Shown in pieces: positions 3,688 through 60,118 of a DNA stretch of 64,000 nt (within the stretch, counting starts at the first letter, position 1; each line of letters starts with the position of its first letter). Origin of the DNA: Hoplostethus atlanticus. Its lineage: Eukaryota > Chordata > Actinopteri > Trachichthyiformes > Trachichthyidae. The stretch spans positions 1,355,501 to 1,419,500 of the forward strand of contig JAXDDX010000116.1 in NCBI GenBank assembly GCA_034670405.1. The letters run 5' to 3'. The notes under the pieces were generated by a model, which was not told the origin of the DNA, searched no databases, and was given only the letters and a program-made list of their open reading frames with translations. A program made the translations under genes and the position numbers.

Positions 3688-5153
3688 AACACATTTATAA
3701 AGGTTGCTACGCACAAAAAAGTGGCGTTAACCGGGGTGAAATGTGCGTATGCATATTTTACCGCAAACGTCGGGATTTATAGAAAAATTCTATGCGGTAA
3801 AAGGTGTGCAGTTCTACGCATCCTTTCACCCATGCGTAGAGCTCACCGCAAAGTTTTTCAGACACGGGAATCAGCGACGCCCGATGGGGAGATCACAAAA
3901 TAAAGCTCAGTCCTCTTAAAAACATAGTTTTATAAGTGTGCTTTCACAGGGATTGTGGTCTGTTGTATCTGTTAAGCCACTACTTAAAACCTATTTTTAT
4001 ACAAAGGCATTCTCTTAACTCTTATTTTATTGATTATTTATTGATTATTATCCAGGATGAAGTGACTGAAGGGGCAATTTTTCATAAAATAAAACTCAGT
4101 GATTTAACCATGCAACAACCTCAGAAAGGCTAAATAACAACAACATGAGGCTACTGTTCAAAATCAAAGAATACATTTATTAATCAGAGACTCACATAAG
4201 AACGGAGCACTGCAGAGAATTTATGAACGATAACGATTCTCTGTCAAAATCAGCAGGGGGAGGCGCGTAGAAACAGCAGTTTGCGGCTTGCATCTCTCTC
4301 TCTCTCTCTCTCTCCACAATGGGGGGGAATGTATTTACCACCACGAAAAGCAAGCAGGCTGAGAAACCGAACTAAGTGACGTGTCTGTCTGTCTATCGAT
4401 CTCCTCAGCTCCGTTTCAGTGGGCTACTATGGACGCCCTAGCATACACCTATGGAAATATTTTTCTATAGATACATAAAGCTTAAACTGAGGGGGCAAAA
4501 ATACAACTGAGGGGCTAAGCATAGTTTACTCTCTCATATGTAGCTCCTTATGCTCAATGTTGTATAACTTAATAACTTAACTTAATCATTTTTAAATTGT
4601 TTTTATCATTTTGTTCATCGTCAGTTTGTCTACTATTTTTATTTTGTCTTCTAAAGCACTTTGTAACTTAAACTAAAGTTTATTTTTATTATTATTAAGG
4701 TGTGCCGGATTATTAGGGCTTGTGCTGTTCTCCACAATGTGGTACAGATGCCTCTACTGAGCCCCCAAACAGTACACCTTTACGGCGCTCAACCTCAGTG
4801 ATGAGGACCTTGATCTCGCACTCCGCAAATTTCGCCTTTCTTGTAGTTGCCGTCTCTCCGTCTTTCCCTCATTGATAGTCCAACAAAGGCTCCTTAACAA
4901 CGTCGGCATATTCATGACCTATTTTGCATTGACCATTTATGGATGATTGTGGGACGACACTGGGAGGAGTAGTGGGAGGAGTACACGAGCGCACAATTCT
5001 CCGCAGGTGGGTATTTATAAAGAGAAGACTGCGTACAGGTGTGCGCCGCACGGTTTTATAGATCTGAATATTTTCTTGCGTTAGTAGATTCTGAGGTTTG
5101 TGCGTACGCAATGTTTTAGGATGCAATCTACGCAAAGTTTTATAAATGAGGCC
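3688..5153 (+). mobile_element. decayed PIF/Harbinger-type DNA transposon
   Basis: The right end reads, in reverse, GGGCCTCATTTATAAAAC, an end seen on fish Harbinger-like elements. The left end has a worn match (ATTTATAAAGG at about 3695) followed by GCTACGCAC-type sub-terminal sequence that mirrors the right side. At 4703-4753 the + strand reads CRIIRACAVLHNVVQMP, which fits the C-terminal helix of HARBI1-like DDE transposases. The rest of the transposase is gone or unreadable. A (CT)n run lies at about 4292-4313. The left boundary is approximate. Confidence 0.6.
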
Positions 5154-6489
5154 CCTGGTCTCGCTAGCTCTCCGCTATGTTTTGCCTGAGCGAAGCACTA
5201 GCCAAGCCAACACCACTGCAAGCACCGTGCTAGGCTAGCTAGCAACCCATGCTAGCCTTGCCTAGATCTACACACTCTGATACCAATCAACCAATGGGAG
5301 TAAGGGAACACCATGACCAGCTCTGATGGACCGCCCCCTCATTATCAGGGACAGGGAAATACAGAAATATATAAATAGGGAAAAGAATATATACTGAAAT
5401 GCATATCTAAGGAAATAGATAAAAAGAGACATTTAGAAATACAGAATTAAATTAAATTCTCATGAGACAATAAATAAATAGGACAAAATATACAAAAATA
5501 TACATTTATACCAGATACCAGATCTATTTATTTATTACTGTGTACATTCATGCATTATTTTATTTATTTCTATATACAGTATATATACTGATTAGTTGAT
5601 TTTATTTATTTATTTATTCATACATTAATTAACTTATTAATGCTAATGCCATAGTTTACTAGGCCATTTACAAATGCACTTATAAACTTCGAATTTATAA
5701 TTGTATTTACCAATGTTACATTACCTGTTGTGAGATGACGGCTCTTCCTGCCTTACCAATGGCTTACAATGGCTTATTGGTCTTCACAAAGGCGAGTAAA
5801 GTACTAATGGCTTACTACAGTTTTGTTAGGCATTTGTTCATGTGTTCATGTTAGATAACACTTTACCAACTAGATTTGCAGTACCTATTCTAAAGTCGTC
5901 ACTATTCCTGCCTCACCGATGGCTTACGAGTGTTTGTAAAGCATTACTTCTATTTTCAGGGGCAGAACTAATGTTTTTTTTAGAGCTGTACAGCCGCAAC
6001 ACAGTCATGGAGGATTGATATTCCATCCATGACTGTATCAATTTAGCAGAGGTTAGAGCCCCTGGCATGCCATGCAGAAAAATAGCAGAGAAGTTCTGGC
6101 ATAGGGAGAACATAAAATAATGCAGCCTTTACAAATGCATTAGTAAATAGCTTAGTAAGCATGAACAGTTTTTTTTAGGGTTTATCATCATTAATGTATT
6201 TACTAACATTTGTTAAGGGAACCTTATTATAATGTGTTACCCATTATAACTTATTTCTAACTTTCGCACAAGCTTGGTGTCTGTAATAACTCAGGATCTG
6301 CGCATGCGAAATAAAATAAAATACATTCACTTTTACACTTATTATCAGAGGACAAAATTGTACAGAAGTCATTACAATGCATGCTAAAATAGATAGTACA
6401 CATAATGCATTAACGTGTTCAACTTAGATTATGTGTTCTTTCATGCAAATAATGCATGGATGCAAGGAGCATTTTAGAAAATACACATA
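5154..6489. other. unassigned, repeat-like AT-rich sequence
   Basis: No gene found. The stretch at 5640-6245 has repeated phrases (ACCAATGGCTTAC, TTACTAACATTTGTTAAGG, ATTATAATGTGTTACCC) that resemble the end of a dispersed fish repeat, but no matching second end was found. Confidence 0.35.
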
Positions 6490-7559
6490 CAGACGGGTGA
6501 CAAATTAAAGGAAAAACCTGAATAAATGAGTGGAGAAACGCAGATGTGTTCCATACAGGTGCACTGCATGACACAATTAAGCAATTAACATCCAATCATG
6601 CTCTGTGGCATGTATAAAAATGCTGTGAAGGCCCAGTTGACCTCGATTTTGGATCAAGATGGCAAGAGGAAAAGATCTAAATGATCTTTTCCCAGATGGC
6701 AGGAGCTTCAGTTACAAAGACTGCTCAACTGGCTAGTGTTTCAGTAGGAACAGTGACTAAAGTGACACCTGCATTTACGTAGATCTATGGGAAAGACATC
6801 AGTAAATAGGGTCGGAAATTGTGATCGAAAGCGCACAATCGATGACTGTGATGCGTGATGCATTAGTGTGATGTGTAAGGAAAACAGAGGAGCAACTCTT
6901 CCTCAGGTGACTGAGAATGTCAATGCAGGACGTGATCAGACTGTCAGCAAGAACAGTCCATCAACAACTACATAGAGAGTGATATTATAGTAGGGTTGCA
7001 AATATGAATGCACATTTTAGAGTTCAGTGGTGCAAAAACTATAGGCACTGTTCTACAGAGAGAGAACGGTACACGCCTGAATGCTTGACCCCTACAGTGA
7101 GGGGGTCTGGTGGCTCTGTTATGCTGTGGGGGGCATTTTCCTGGCATGGTTTGGGTCCACTTGTCCCCTTAGAGGGAAGGGTCACTGCAAATCAATACAA
7201 AGTTATTCTGAGTGATCACCTTTATCCTATGATGAAACATTTCTATCCTGATGTGAGTGGTCTCTTCCAGGATGATTTCCCCCATCCACAGGGCACAAGG
7301 GGTCACTGAATGGTTTGATGAGTATGGCAATGATGTGAATCATATGTTATGGCCTTCGCAGTCTTCTTGCTCTCCACCATCATCATCAAAACACCAAATG
7401 AGGGAATATCTTTTGGAAGAATGGTGTTCCATCCCTCCAGTAGAGAGACTTGGAGAATCTATGCCAAGGTGCATTGAAAGTGTTCTGGCGGCTCGTGGTG
7501 GCCCAACACCTTACTAAGACACTTTATGTTGGTTTTTCCTTTCATTTGTCACCCTTCTG
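6490..7559 (+). mobile_element. Tc1-like transposon, internally deleted
   Basis: The ends form a near-perfect inverted repeat of about 29 bp: CAGACGGGTGACAAATTAAA on the left and, in reverse, CAGAAGGGTGACAAATGAAA on the right. Both ends are flanked by the dinucleotide TA (6488-6489 and 7560-7561), the expected target duplication. At 1,070 bp it is shorter than the usual ~1.6 kb. The transposase inside is broken, so the copy is dead. Confidence 0.93.
6660..7517 (+). pseudogene. Tc1 transposase remnant
   Basis: A start MARGKDLNDLF fits the N-terminus of fish Tc1 transposases, followed in another frame by ASVTKTAQLASVSVGTVTK of the helix-turn-helix DNA-binding part. From 7004 the catalytic region is readable: GGSVMLWGAFSWHGLGPL and then FQDD, which carries the second catalytic Asp of the DDE triad. 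A frameshift follows, and PIHRAQGVTEWFDEYGNDVN continues in the next frame. The middle of the protein is deleted, and the usual SPDLNPIEHLW region is damaged. Confidence 0.9.
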
Positions 7560-7561
7560 TA

Positions 7562-8654
7562 CAATTGTGATTCAAAAAAATAAAACCACAACAGGAAAAA
7601 TGGCCAGTTGTTTTGATATTGTGTTCTACTCTAATGATTGTTACTTGTTTTGAAGTGCAGTGGTTGACTGAATGGTTGCCCTACTTTCAATGCATATGCA
7701 TAATTGTGGTTGAATTGCATATATTTAAAAAGTTTTTTTTTTTTATAACAAACGTAAAAAATCCAATAAAAAAACCCTGATGAAATTGTTGTTTGAGTGC
7801 CAAAAGAGCTGGCTCTTATAGGTGAGCGTGGGATCCAAATCCCTGAAAAGAGCCCAAAGAGACTGAATGCCCGTCACTTATGCATAGGCACCAGCAACAG
7901 TGGCAGCAGGGTGGAGCAGCAGCTAGAGAATGAGGAAGTGAGTTTGACAGCATAAATAAACTCAGTTGACTCATCAGATGATCAGTTGTCTGCGTGAACC
8001 AACTTCACAGACCTCGAACATCCAAACCATGTTTCCAAAAAGAAGGTGAATACAGAATATTTTTCTGGACTTCAAATATATTCACAGTATGGCAAGGTGA
8101 CCTGCCATACTGTGGGTTATTCTTGTAACCTGAAGAAATTGTTATTTTTTTGGAATTTTCTTAAAACAGTACATTGTCTGTAAGTCATATCATTGTCACC
8201 ATATCAGTGTATCACTTTTGACAGTATCAATGATCCAGTACCAGTGACGCGTAACCATAGAGAGAATCAAATAAGGAGTGCGACGTCAATGAACCTACCT
8301 CCTAACTTCAGAAACTCCAGGTACCGGCTCTGCAGCATTCCTCACACACCATACTCTTCACAGCCATGATACAGTACATAACATTTTGAGTCAATGCATG
8401 TGTTAGAGCTGTTAATGTACTAACTTTCCATTAAAGGTGCAATAAGTAAGATTACTACTGTCCAATAGCACAAATTCACCATAATATACTGTATATCCAG
8501 GGGGTTAATAGTGTTGTTGATCAATTTGTCAGGCGTTGAGATTCATGGATTTCAAAATAAATTACTTTCCAGCCCATTTTGAACAACCCCCAGTATAATG
8601 ATATATTATTATTGTTATTATTATTATTATTGATGTTGCTGCAATTCCTTGGTT
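7562..8654. other. unassigned sequence
   Basis: Nothing I recognise beyond short A/T runs and a (TTA)n tract at about 8607-8629. Confidence 0.4.
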
Positions 8655-9115
8655 GCTTGGTTGAGATATCGCATTTGACTGTAAGGGCCTTTTTGGCCTA
8701 GTGGTGCCACTATGTTGAGCCAATCAGTTTTATGTTGAAAATGTCTGATCTTAGTGTAAAGATGCATCATTGCCTCAAGGTTTCACGTCACGTCAAAATC
8801 AGGCCCGTAGTGTCTGAGATAACACGTATGACGTTGTGGCGCTATGTTGGGTCAATAAGTTTTATTTTCAAATTGCCAGATCGCAGAGTAATGATTATTA
8901 TCAGAGTATTATACCTCCAAGTTTCGTCACAATCGGAGCCAGCGGTGTCTGAGATATCGTGCGTGAAACATTAGAGCTTTTTAGCCTGTAGGTGGCGCTA
9001 TATTGGGATGATCAGTTTTATTTTGTAAATGCTGGATCTCAGTGTAAAGATGCATAATTTCTCCAAGGCTCATCAAAATTGGGCCAATGGTGTATGTGAA
9101 GCTTAGGGCCTTTTT
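8655..9115. repeat. degenerate ~135-bp tandem repeat
   Basis: Three and a half diverged units share the landmarks GTCTGAGATA (about 8812 and 8946), GGCGCTAT..TTGGG, CAGTTTTATTTT and GTGTAAAGATGCAT. Unit length from the landmarks is about 134-150 bp. Confidence 0.75.
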
Positions 9116-9951
9116 GCAGACTTTAGTTCGTAGACCCTTCGTGTGTATCGTGTGTGGATGAATTAAATGTTTTGGTAAAGAATGTCTCAATAGAGCAAAT
9201 AGGATAGGATAATACTGCACATTGTCTTAAACCTTACTTTATTCAAATTATAACAACTTATTCATTTTGATTATAACAATATGCAACACCTTAATGTGTA
9301 GTCATTCTGCTAGAGGTACGCCTACCCATCATATGAAGTTGTGTGAAAATGTAGGAAATTAGTTTTAAATGGCCAAATATTTTAGGGAGGGCCCCCAGCC
9401 CCCCGCTGCAATTCTGTCTCCCCCACCTTTCACTACATGGTTACACCCTTGCAATAGAACCCTGTCTGAGGACTTCAGGTTGTGATCTGGCTCATCTGAG
9501 GTTAAACAGTCTGTGATATTGCTGGATGCCAGACCATCCCTGTCTCAAAAGTGACCTGTGATATGTTAGAATCAATTCTGAAACTAACAGGTAACCGTAG
9601 TGAATCCTCTATCTGCATTCACTGCTCTAGATTCAAGATTCAAGATTCAAGAACTTTATTTGTCACATACACACATGGGGTGTGCAGTGAAATGAAAAAG
9701 TGGCAATGCTCAACAGGAATGTGCAAAGGGCAACAGTACACAGTATTTACAATAAAAAACCAACAACAATATTTACAGTATTACAGTAAGAGCTCTTATA
9801 TAAAAAAACAACACAATATTTACAGTATTACAGTAAGAGCTCTTATATAAAAAAAACAACACAATATTTACAGTAAGAGCACTATAAAAATATAGTAATA
9901 TGAGAAATTGTATGTATGTAATATAATATAAATTATGTGTAGTCGTTACCT

Positions 9952-56596: not shown

Positions 56597-57559
56597 GTAA
56601 CAATTTAATCATTACTAAGCACAGACTCTGGTGAATGTTCCATCCTGGTGTTCTTAGATCTTAGTTTGGCTTTCAATACCGTTCAACAGTCAATTGTTAT
56701 TGATAGGCTTAGGCACTGGGTTCGGATCTCTGGGACTGTGCTGGATTGGTTCTCAAATAAATACAAACACACAGAAAATTTTCCTTTGCAATTAGTGATT
56801 TTATGTTCTCATCTGCGACAATTACTTGTGGTGTTTCACAGGGCTCCATATTGAGGCCAATTTTATTTTCTATCTACATGCTACCATTAGGCCATATTAT
56901 CTGTGAAAATGATATATCCTTCCACTGTTACGCAGATGATGCCCAGCTGTACTTGTCAGTCAAGCCCTCTGCATTTAACAAAGTGTCTGTTCTGCATGAC
57001 TGTATAGCAGATATTCAAAAATGGATGGCCCTTAACATCCTCCAGTTAAACTTTGAGAAAACTCCTTATTATTGGTCCTAAGCCTGTTTCTGGTCAAATA
57101 AAATCAGTTCTGGGGCCAACTGCCTCCAACATTAAAGCCCTCTTCTGGAAACCATGGCGTGATTTTTGATAGCAATCTCAACTTTGAACAGCATATTAAA
57201 AAACTTGTCCAGTCATACTGCTACCATCTCAAAATTAGATCCACTCTGCCTTTTGAGGATACTGAAAAAAATGTGTCTTTGTTTCTTCTAGATTAGATTA
57301 CTGCAATGCCTTATATACCCGCTTAAAACGCCAAGCCAAGCCCTAACCCTGTTCAAAATTCTGCAGTGAAACTGATAACTAGAACAAATGTGAGGTCACA
57401 CATAGCTGCAATGTTAGCTTCCCTAGACGGGCTGCCCATATATTTTAGAATTTATTTTAAAATACTGTTGATCACTTATAAAGCACTGCATGATTTAGCA
57501 CCTAAGTACTTCAAAGAACACCCAACAACTCTAAGTGGCTTAGCATAAGTTCAATCAGG

Positions 57560-57678
57560 AAGACTACCTGGCTCATATTTACTTTATTGCTAGTCCAGGT
57601 ATATTCACAGCAATCGGCCTAGCTCGTTATTCACTCCACTCCTTTCCTCCCTCCAAGGGAACCAATGACAAACCACAT

Positions 57679-57717
<39 letters not shown>

Positions 57718-58035
57718 TACCTGCCCTATCCTTGTCTTTGTCATTTCAGGCTGCATTACCGCTGCGTCCCACCCCCTCCCCACCACCACCAGTGCCAGGC
57801 TCCAATTGATCGTCAGCGCATCCATTCTGCACAATCGAAGAGCAGTCTACAGGGAGGGAGTTTCCTGCTCATCCAAGATTCACAGGGTTCTCCTTTAACC
57901 CACAAACATTGCTTTCAACTGGAGCCACCACAAATGTTCACTTGATTCATTATCCATTAAAGCTTGTATTCAAACTTTCTAGTCTCTCCTAACTTGAACT
58001 AAGGTTGAAAACTCCCAATCAAAGTTCCTAGAATA
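57560..58035. other. unplaced DNA between L2 halves
   Basis: Does not look like L2. Contains an (AT)n run at 57681-57710 and sequence ending CCCAATCAAAGTTCCTAGAA. It may be another insertion or a rearranged flank. Confidence 0.35.
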
Positions 58036-58778
58036 TGGCGTTATTTTTGTGCCACATTGCCGAGCGCGCATTGGGACTTTCCTGAGCGCGCAGTGGGGCT
58101 TTCGCAAGCACATCAATTATATTTTGAAAAGAAAATATTAATCTGAGCAAAGAAAAATCTGTTCTGTGCGCGCTCAACTCTGCTTGTACGCTCGCTCAAA
58201 CTCTGCTCTATGCGCTGGCAAGCACCTGCGCACTCACAGTGTCCTCTCCTCTCCCAACATCTCCGCTGTGTGCGCTCTCAACTCTGCTTGCGCGCTCGCT
58301 CAACTTGGCACAGCGTTACAATGTGCCACAAAACCAGCCAATCACAGACTTGGGGAAAGTAATCCTGATTGGTATCCAATCAGGCTGCTTCCACAAACTT
58401 TGGGATTTTCGCATGGATGAAGAGAATTTTCGATGATACTAGCTGCAATAGAGCGCAACAGTGACCGCCCACTTTTTGAACGGCTCCGGTTCCGCAAGTG
58501 AATTTCCCATTCATTCACTACATTTACAACCAAGCCAGCCAACTACGAGATGAATCGTGACCATAAAACATTTGATTCTGAGCAAAAAAAGATCAGAAAA
58601 CGGAAAAAAAGGCAAAGGTACAAGACTGTGTACATAATTATTTTAAGAGTGAAGGAACTACTCATCCCATAAACCATTGCGAATGATACCTTTCCAAAAA
58701 CTTCCAACCTAACTATAGTTTATCGCGCTTCTTCTTGAATTTAACATTCGTCAATATTATAGTGTTTATATTGTTGTT

Positions 58779-58813
<35 letters not shown>

Positions 58814-59767
58814 ATATATATAGTGTTTCATATAGTATAGTGTATAGTGTTGTCATCGACATGGTACAGTGCTTCGTTCCTGACTGCAATCACCGCTCGG
58901 GCGTCCATCAATGCCGGTTCCACCGATTCCCCACCAGTGTGTTGGTGAAGAACCAGTGGATCAGATATATAAGTTATTAACGTTACTCGTTTTTAATAAA
59001 TGTGAATTCGATCCAGTTACATTCACGTAACTAACATTATGCTAATATTACGTGAGGTAGTCACAGCTGCATAGGATAAGCAGCGAGCTAGGTTACGTTA
59101 GCAGCTAACGTTAACGTTAGCTGACAAGACGTTCGCTGGTGCGGTAAACATTTCCATGGTAACAGCGAGCTCCACCAATCAGAGATGTCGCTGTTACACT
59201 TTAGGATTGTGGGTAGTGTAGTACTTCTCCATGACATCGCAAATAAAACATGTTTTTCTCATACGGACTTGTGGCTTCTACAGGAGCATACACCATCGTT
59301 TCACAATCTAATAGCTTGTGGTGAGTCTACCTTGGATGGTTACGACATATGGCTAATAATCAAAATCCCGATTCAGAATATGAATGGGATTTTCACTTCC
59401 GGAACCTCACTGTTGAGCTCTATTAGCGACCTGATTGGATACAAAACAGCCAATCAGAATTACTTTCTCCAAGTCTGTGATTGGCTGGTTTTGTGGCACA
59501 TTGTAACGCTGTGCCAAGTTGAGCGAGCGCGCTAGAGTTGAGAGCGCACACAGCGGAGATGTTGGAAGAGGAGAGGACACTGTGAGCGAGGGCGCAGGTG
59601 CCTGCCAGCGCACAGAGCAGAGTTTGAGCAAGCGTACAAGCAGAGTTGAGCGCGCACAGAACAGATTTTCTTTTGCTCAGATTAATATTTTCTCTTCAAA
59701 ATATAATTGATGTGCTTGCGAAGGTCCTACTGCGCGCTCGGCAATGTGGCACAAAAATAACGCCATA
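58036..59767 (+). mobile_element. THAP-domain DNA transposon with ~340-480-bp inverted ends
   Basis: Begins TATGGCGTTATTTTTGTGCC and ends with the reverse complement. The two arms stay alike for 340 bp and more (58036-58385 against 59429-59767), with a weaker match on to 58516 and 59379. They share GC-rich words such as GTGCGCGCTCAACTC and CAACATCTCCGCTGTG. The left arm carries an extra ~20-bp internal duplication. A THAP coding start lies between the arms. THAP transposases belong to P and Kolobok elements; at 1.73 kb most of the transposase is deleted. Target duplication is unclear (CTAGAA on the left, CTGGAA on the right). Confidence 0.85.
58861..58980 (+). pseudogene. THAP zinc-finger exon fragment
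   Basis: ATG at 58861 opens MVQCFVPDCNHRSGVHQCRF and then HRFPTSVLVKNQWIRYI. The C-x4-C start, the HRFP block and the invariant Trp are the first half of a THAP DNA-binding domain. The second half, with the last Cys and His of the zinc site, is missing: the frame stops at 58978. It may be a first exon whose partner exons were deleted. Confidence 0.88.
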
Positions 59768-60118
59768 CTGGAACAGCCTTCCATTAAGCGCAAGAACTGA
59801 GAGGAGGCTGTCTCCTTTTTCAGGTCAAGCTTAAAGACTCACTTTTATAGGATTGCTTTTGTAAATGTTTAGTTTTGATTGAATACTTGTTTAAACTGAG
59901 TGTGTCTTATTGCTGGGTTATTGCAGTCTTTTATTTATACTTTATTTTTTATTACTTTTACTATATTTTACTTTTAATGTTTTACTTTTACTATTCATTT
60001 TATTTTTCCTCTAACTGAAACTTTTATCTTTTGTTATTTGATCGTGCGATTTTTGGTTTTACTCACTGTAAAGCACTTTATGCCCTGTGTTTGAAAGGTG
60101 CTATATAAATAGTTATTA

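Follow-up and report, generated by a model that had tools for sequence, protein, structure and literature searches.

P and Kolobok elements use THAP domains, with target duplications of about 8 bp in P elements and TTAA in Kolobok. Closer to the locus described here are two other superfamilies. IS3EU elements have TA..TA termini and a target-site duplication that is usually 6 bp long (PMC10045372), fungal members end in TAYGG..CCRTA (PMC12730594), and the available parts of both sources treat IS3EU as integrase-like DDE transposons. ISL2EU elements encode THAP and YqaJ and have ends that usually start with GG, according to the available text of PMC4482050, in which the GG start is only "usual" and is thus no strict requirement for membership; YqaJ together with THAP, HTH and DDE genes makes up the ISL2EU gene set in the parts available of PMC4482050 and PMC9179366.

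The element reported here lies in the window, the whole 64-kb stretch of DNA that was analysed, and the window lies in the Hoplostethus atlanticus genome that we searched (632.8 Mb). It is very probably a non-autonomous IS3EU/GingerRoot DNA transposon whose interior has been replaced by, or reduced to, an inserted, gene-depleted transposon of the ISL2EU type; it codes for no protein itself and is ordinary in kind and unusual in its nested make-up, a new non-autonomous member of known superfamilies. (i) The outer element resembles IS3EU/GingerRoot in its 6-bp target duplication, its TATGG..CCATA termini (and so TA..TA) and an integrase-type gene in its longer relatives, a class assignment made by ends and rva_4 profile, and differs in that the window copy has no integrase match, the arms are about 350 bp long, a foreign ISL2EU relic sits inside, and one relative has weak HECT-like coding. 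(ii) The inner element resembles ISL2EU (PHIS group) in its AT duplication, its THAP exon and its YqaJ-carrying relatives, one of which (L049) also has THAP, HTH_Tnp_4 and DDE_Tnp_4 open reading frames (ORFs), and differs in having neither transposase core nor YqaJ, in ends that begin with AG under the AT duplication instead of the usual GG, and in being bounded by IS3EU-type ends. (iii) P and Kolobok elements share with the locus the use of a THAP domain and differ from the outer element in target duplication length and ends. Feature coordinates are collected in Table 1.

Table 1. Features of the nested element and its surroundings, in window positions.
Feature	Positions	Strand	Description	Basis
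Left copy of 6-bp target duplication	58028..58033	+	CTAGAA	
Outer composite element	58034..59767	+	TATGGCG...CGCCATA; non-autonomous, IS3EU/GingerRoot type (very probable); 1,734 bp	Aligned arms; other copies with these ends and 6-bp target duplications
Left part of outer element	58034..58447	+	Subterminal stretch preceded by the long terminal inverted arm, whose mirroring extends to about 58384	
22-bp tandem pair in left arm	58054..58097	+	General in the arm family, not a left-arm novelty	
Left copy of inner 2-bp target duplication	58448..58449	+	AT; AC in 6 of 12 aligned copies	
Inner element	58450..59421	+	Deletion derivative of an ISL2EU-type transposon; 972 bp; AGAGCGCAACAGTG...CACTGTTGAGCTCT	Free-standing copy L065; YqaJ relatives L049 and L050
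GT microsatellite within inner element	58780..58813	+		
Truncated THAP exon	58861..58980	+	First Cys pair and HRFP..W only; ends in a stop	
Right copy of inner 2-bp target duplication	59422..59423	+	AT	
Right arm of outer element	59424..59767	-	One 22-bp unit lost	Related right arm adjoins integrase-gene DNA at L060 44-302
Right copy of 6-bp target duplication	59768..59773	+	CTGGAA	
Continuation of the old interspersed host repeat beyond the insertion	59774..60118	+		At least 39 other genome matches; uninterrupted relatives L066-L069

Arms, termini and insertion site

A sequence-only reading of the window had described two nearly identical arms in opposite orientation, rich in CpG, around half a THAP domain, and these observations hold. 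In the window copy, 320 of 333 aligned columns are identical (96.1%, local alignment), with a local score of 533 vs at most 25 in 50 shuffles, and the mirroring extends inward to about 58384/59430; an extra 27-bp inverted match (58488-58514/59380-59406) falls within the ends of the inner element. The inverted arms and the half THAP domain do not look like products of chance. The right border had been placed correctly at 59767, and the left one moves from 58036 to 58034, where TATGGCG begins. Observed/expected CpG is 0.92 for the outer element vs 0.44 for the window and 0.19 for positions 57000-57580, and this retained CpG fits the recent arrival that had been suggested; the foldback origin suggested beside it is not needed. 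A duplication had been noted on the left side only, which is true of the window copy and not of the family: the 22-bp pair is complete in 11 of 12 left arms and in 7 of the 10 right arms that have sequence at this position (12 aligned copies), and since most right arms have both units, that of the window has lost one. The window's left arm is in turn short of two runs, 4 and 8 bases long, found in each of the 11 other aligned copies. No second copy of the element was found inside the window, and its exact 23-base end had no match in viral contigs.

The left arm matched the genome in at least 43 places (40 of 107 first-look candidates scored); 20 stretches were fetched, and others later. Flanks were compared in 13 copies with both ends, window included, and controls were formed by joining the left and right flanks of different copies (n = 156). 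An exact 6-bp direct repeat stands outside TATGGCG...CGCCATA in 6 of the 13 (GTTATT, CCGCTG, TTCTCG, GATTGC, GGTGAG and GAGAAA), and a 6-bp repeat with at most one mismatch in 9, compared with 0 of 156 cross-paired controls. The window is among these nine, its own imperfect duplication matching at five of six positions. Exact flank repeats of 2-5 or 7-9 bp occurred in none of the 13 copies, nor did repeats of 7, 8 or 9 bp with one mismatch allowed, and 2-bp flanks with at most one mismatch were in mild excess (9 of 13 copies vs 59 of 156 controls) with no exact match. Four of the paired copies (L012, L015, L020 and L028) have no 6-bp duplication. Of the ends located by a pattern, one that favours such sequences, 16 of the 17 left ones have TAT before GG, and 15 of the 16 right ones continue with ATA.

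A copy outside these 13, L014 (255-330), has lost 17 bp of its left end exactly between target duplication and arm, with ATAAAG kept on both sides, possibly by integration of an already shortened end. Several loci, namely L019, L022 and L025, show only one recognisable arm.

The insertion had been placed in an L2 LINE. What stands is an insertion into an old dispersed repeat, which presumably is L2; the right flank matches at least 39 other places in the genome besides the window at 69-89% identity (40 of 92 candidates scored). The repeat runs uninterrupted through all four relatives fetched (L066-L069). Across the insertion point L067 reads CTTAGACTCTGGAACAGCC and L068 CCTAGACTCTGAAACAGC, and on these readings the left flank of the window differs by a few lost bases.

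An ISL2EU-type relic inside the arms

The inner element is bounded in the window by GCA/AT/AGAGCGC...GAGCTCT/AT/TAGC, and a free-standing copy with the THAP exon and without outer arms occupies L065 497-1476 (ACA/AT/AGAGCGC...GAGCTCT/AT/AGGCC). The second THAP match fetched, L064, also lacks arms and has damaged ends of its own, and inner-type DNA without arms occurs at L049 and L050 as well. For 21 YqaJ matches 20 loci were cut out, of which L040, L041 and L044 match the middle of the window element and not its arms. Around L040, the longer piece L049 has a YqaJ ORF (E 1.9e-13) enclosed by stretches homologous to the inner part of the window element; upstream, on the other strand, stand ORFs matching THAP (E 1.2e-17), HTH_Tnp_4 (E 3.4e-12) and DDE_Tnp_4 (E 4.8e-19), which lie in the same 9.9-kb piece outside the homologous stretch and may stem from a neighbouring ISL2EU copy. 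The inner target, GCA/AT/TAGC, agrees with the A/AT/T reported for ISL2EU. At L050 the inner element sits in a minisatellite, next to an unfilled unit with the sequence GGACCATTGGCTG. This speaks for AT and not TA as the duplicated pair, a choice that depends mainly on L050 as the window or L065 alone would also be compatible with TA. L022 and L025 read GCAATAG before their own, other interiors, so that a two-base shift of the left inner border is possible.

The half THAP domain (58861-58977) aligns with profile positions 1-37 of 87 of PF05485 at E 7.8e-5, in a 39-codon stretch whose 23.8 bits fall slightly below the curated cut-off of 23.9; PDB sequences yielded nothing beyond one weak match to THAP11 (E 0.88) and one that is spurious. 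Eleven aligned copies span the exon, and 10 of them end it identically; L013 has two extra bases just before the end. The truncated exon is inherited debris and most likely has no function in the outer element. The THAP transposon of the sequence-only reading thus survives as a young DNA transposon with unusually long inverted ends and a residual THAP exon, while the exon itself belongs to the nested ISL2EU-type element. The genome holds 103 matches to the exon, and 22 of the 85 strongest lie within 3 kb of the 43 arm matches listed. One exon match (G000:C358:93649-93756) falls in an open frame of 171 aa, the longest among those listed, possibly a fuller THAP protein.

Twelve copies (the window, L009-L015, L018, L020, L026 and L028) were aligned for the nesting; L016, L017, L019, L021, L022, L023/L024, L025 and L027 stood outside this alignment. 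The left inner junction falls at the same base in all 12 and the right one in all 11 that reach it, the slice of L020 stopping short. Pairwise distances are 0.019-0.041 without L028 and L020 and rise to 0.072 with both (mostly 2-4%). Junctions shared to the base point to one nesting event with multiplication of the composite afterwards, and on this alignment the relic most likely entered the IS3EU derivative once before the composite multiplied. Uninterrupted outer-element sequence at the inner junction would read GCAATTAGC. We propose that an IS3EU deletion derivative received, in a single insertion, an ISL2EU derivative within its subterminal part, that an IS3EU integrase supplied in trans would have recognised the outer ends, that the composite would then have moved as one unit with target cuts staggered by 6 bp, and that the ISL2EU relic, with half a THAP exon in it, may have spread as a passenger. 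Pairs of arms without the passenger exist, through a different deletion: L016 measures 577 bp end to end and has no ISL2EU match. The copy at L023/L024 (C85:1686383-1701988) is swollen to 15.6 kb by insertions of about 2 kb and about 12 kb, its 6-bp duplication intact (GGTGAG at both ends); we considered it as an autonomous parent and rejected it, as apart from these two blocks of other DNA it is the same short composite.

Integrase-bearing relatives and the superfamily of the arms

Longer relatives with the same arms carry integrase-type sequence. L022 (C322) starts with the left arm and continues into a different interior; sequence of the window's left part (to about 58451) leads into the integrase-coding interior at L022 299-731. 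Five minus-strand ORFs of L022 match successive parts of the rva_4 integrase core (PF24764; E 0.012 to 8.5e-13), three of them above the curated cut-off, and another ORF gives weak helix-turn-helix matches (best E 1.4e-4, below cut-off). L025 has the arm and two interior stretches in common with L022, the interior being 98-99% identical. On C400, sequence is 92-94% identical to L022 1571-4591 and 88-89% identical to three parts of L022 4809-6238, with an rva_4 match at C400:7972-8130, and a right arm (91%; L060 44-302) starts two bases past the end of the homology to the L022 integrase-gene region. C384 repeats the C400 locus, 99.9% identical over 902 bases, and since the two have their flanks in common they represent a duplication and not independent cases; integrase locus and flanks occur three times at L060, L062 and L063 (C400, C384), 99.9% and 92% alike, which appears from the shared flanks to be a segmental or assembly duplication. 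Among the loci fetched, none combines the two arms with an intact integrase: L022 has the left arm, with no right counterpart within 16.5 kb, and on C400 the right arm is present and the left one missing from the 6 kb upstream (C400:2000-8000). None of the 103 THAP-exon matches falls on C322, C400 or C384, and a THAP protein is, as far as tested, absent from the arms' longer relatives, which the sequence-only reading had named as grounds for rejecting it.

Four other readings of the locus were weighed. That one ISL2EU family owns both arms and THAP exon, the AT/TA beside GGCG being the target duplication and the arms its inverted ends, was our first working idea, on which GAATAT/GGCG...CGCC/ATACTGG can be read as an AT duplication with GG ends, in a superfamily that encodes THAP and YqaJ (available part of PMC4482050). 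The flanks of the 13 copies overturned it, and we now regard it as highly improbable: TAT..ATA is nearly constant at the ends with direct repeats outside at exactly 6 bp, the arms are linked to an integrase gene at L022 as well as on C400, and the YqaJ-bearing L049 and L050, like the free-standing L065, are without outer arms. A derivative of Polinton/Maverick is likewise very unlikely. Long arms, an integrase and a 6-bp duplication, given for Polinton in the available part of PMC10045372, would suit it, but the TATGG..CCATA termini are in keeping with IS3EU, the match of the integrase ORFs is to rva_4, with rve absent among matches to E 0.1, and 13 L022 ORFs tested (a partial sample of 62 of at least 55 aa) gave no polymerase or capsid match. 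The P/Kolobok placement made in the sequence-only reading has the half THAP domain in its favour and yet is extremely improbable, given that no repeats of 7-9 bp (P, about 8 bp) and no exact 4-bp duplication appear in the 13 copies, that the THAP exon sits inside a separately bounded inner element, and that 6-bp duplications with an integrase gene in longer relatives fit neither P nor Kolobok. Two unconnected solo copies of another repeat, facing each other by chance, were a refuting case in the sequence-only reading, and this has next to no probability: the loci with a single recognisable arm (L019, L022 and L025) speak for it, but 9 of the 13 pairs have matching 6-bp flanks outside the pair.

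The nested IS3EU/ISL2EU composite illustrates how classification can be led astray by a protein domain that a transposon contains, as here the THAP exon indicates one superfamily and the ends another, and a single genome shows a passenger transposon multiplied under the ends of another family. The one trait of it that may be new is HECT-like coding in one of the longer relatives, where a weakly matching plus-strand ORF (L022 3423-3779; E 0.0086, 16.2 bits vs a cut-off of 23.9) stands beside the integrase. Four more plus-strand ORFs of L022 and six ORFs of L025 and L061 had no HECT match, and our literature search returned no paper containing both IS3EU and HECT. A tentative and rather doubtful extension would be an IS3EU family with a HECT ubiquitin-ligase gene beside its integrase, whose derivatives took in ISL2EU to form a unit with the ends of two systems, movable by either enzyme; should the HECT cargo be confirmed, it may count as a minor novelty for IS3EU. 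Eight rva_4 loci that were cut out carry no arms of the outer-element family. The genome has at least 151 rva_4 matches, with 150 of 307 candidates scored; some of them, on C207, C144 and C120, fall in open frames of 280-290 aa. Within the IS3EU-type copy at L025, positions 5046-9885 hold nested long ORFs that by eye resemble a LINE reverse transcriptase and a retroelement polyprotein.
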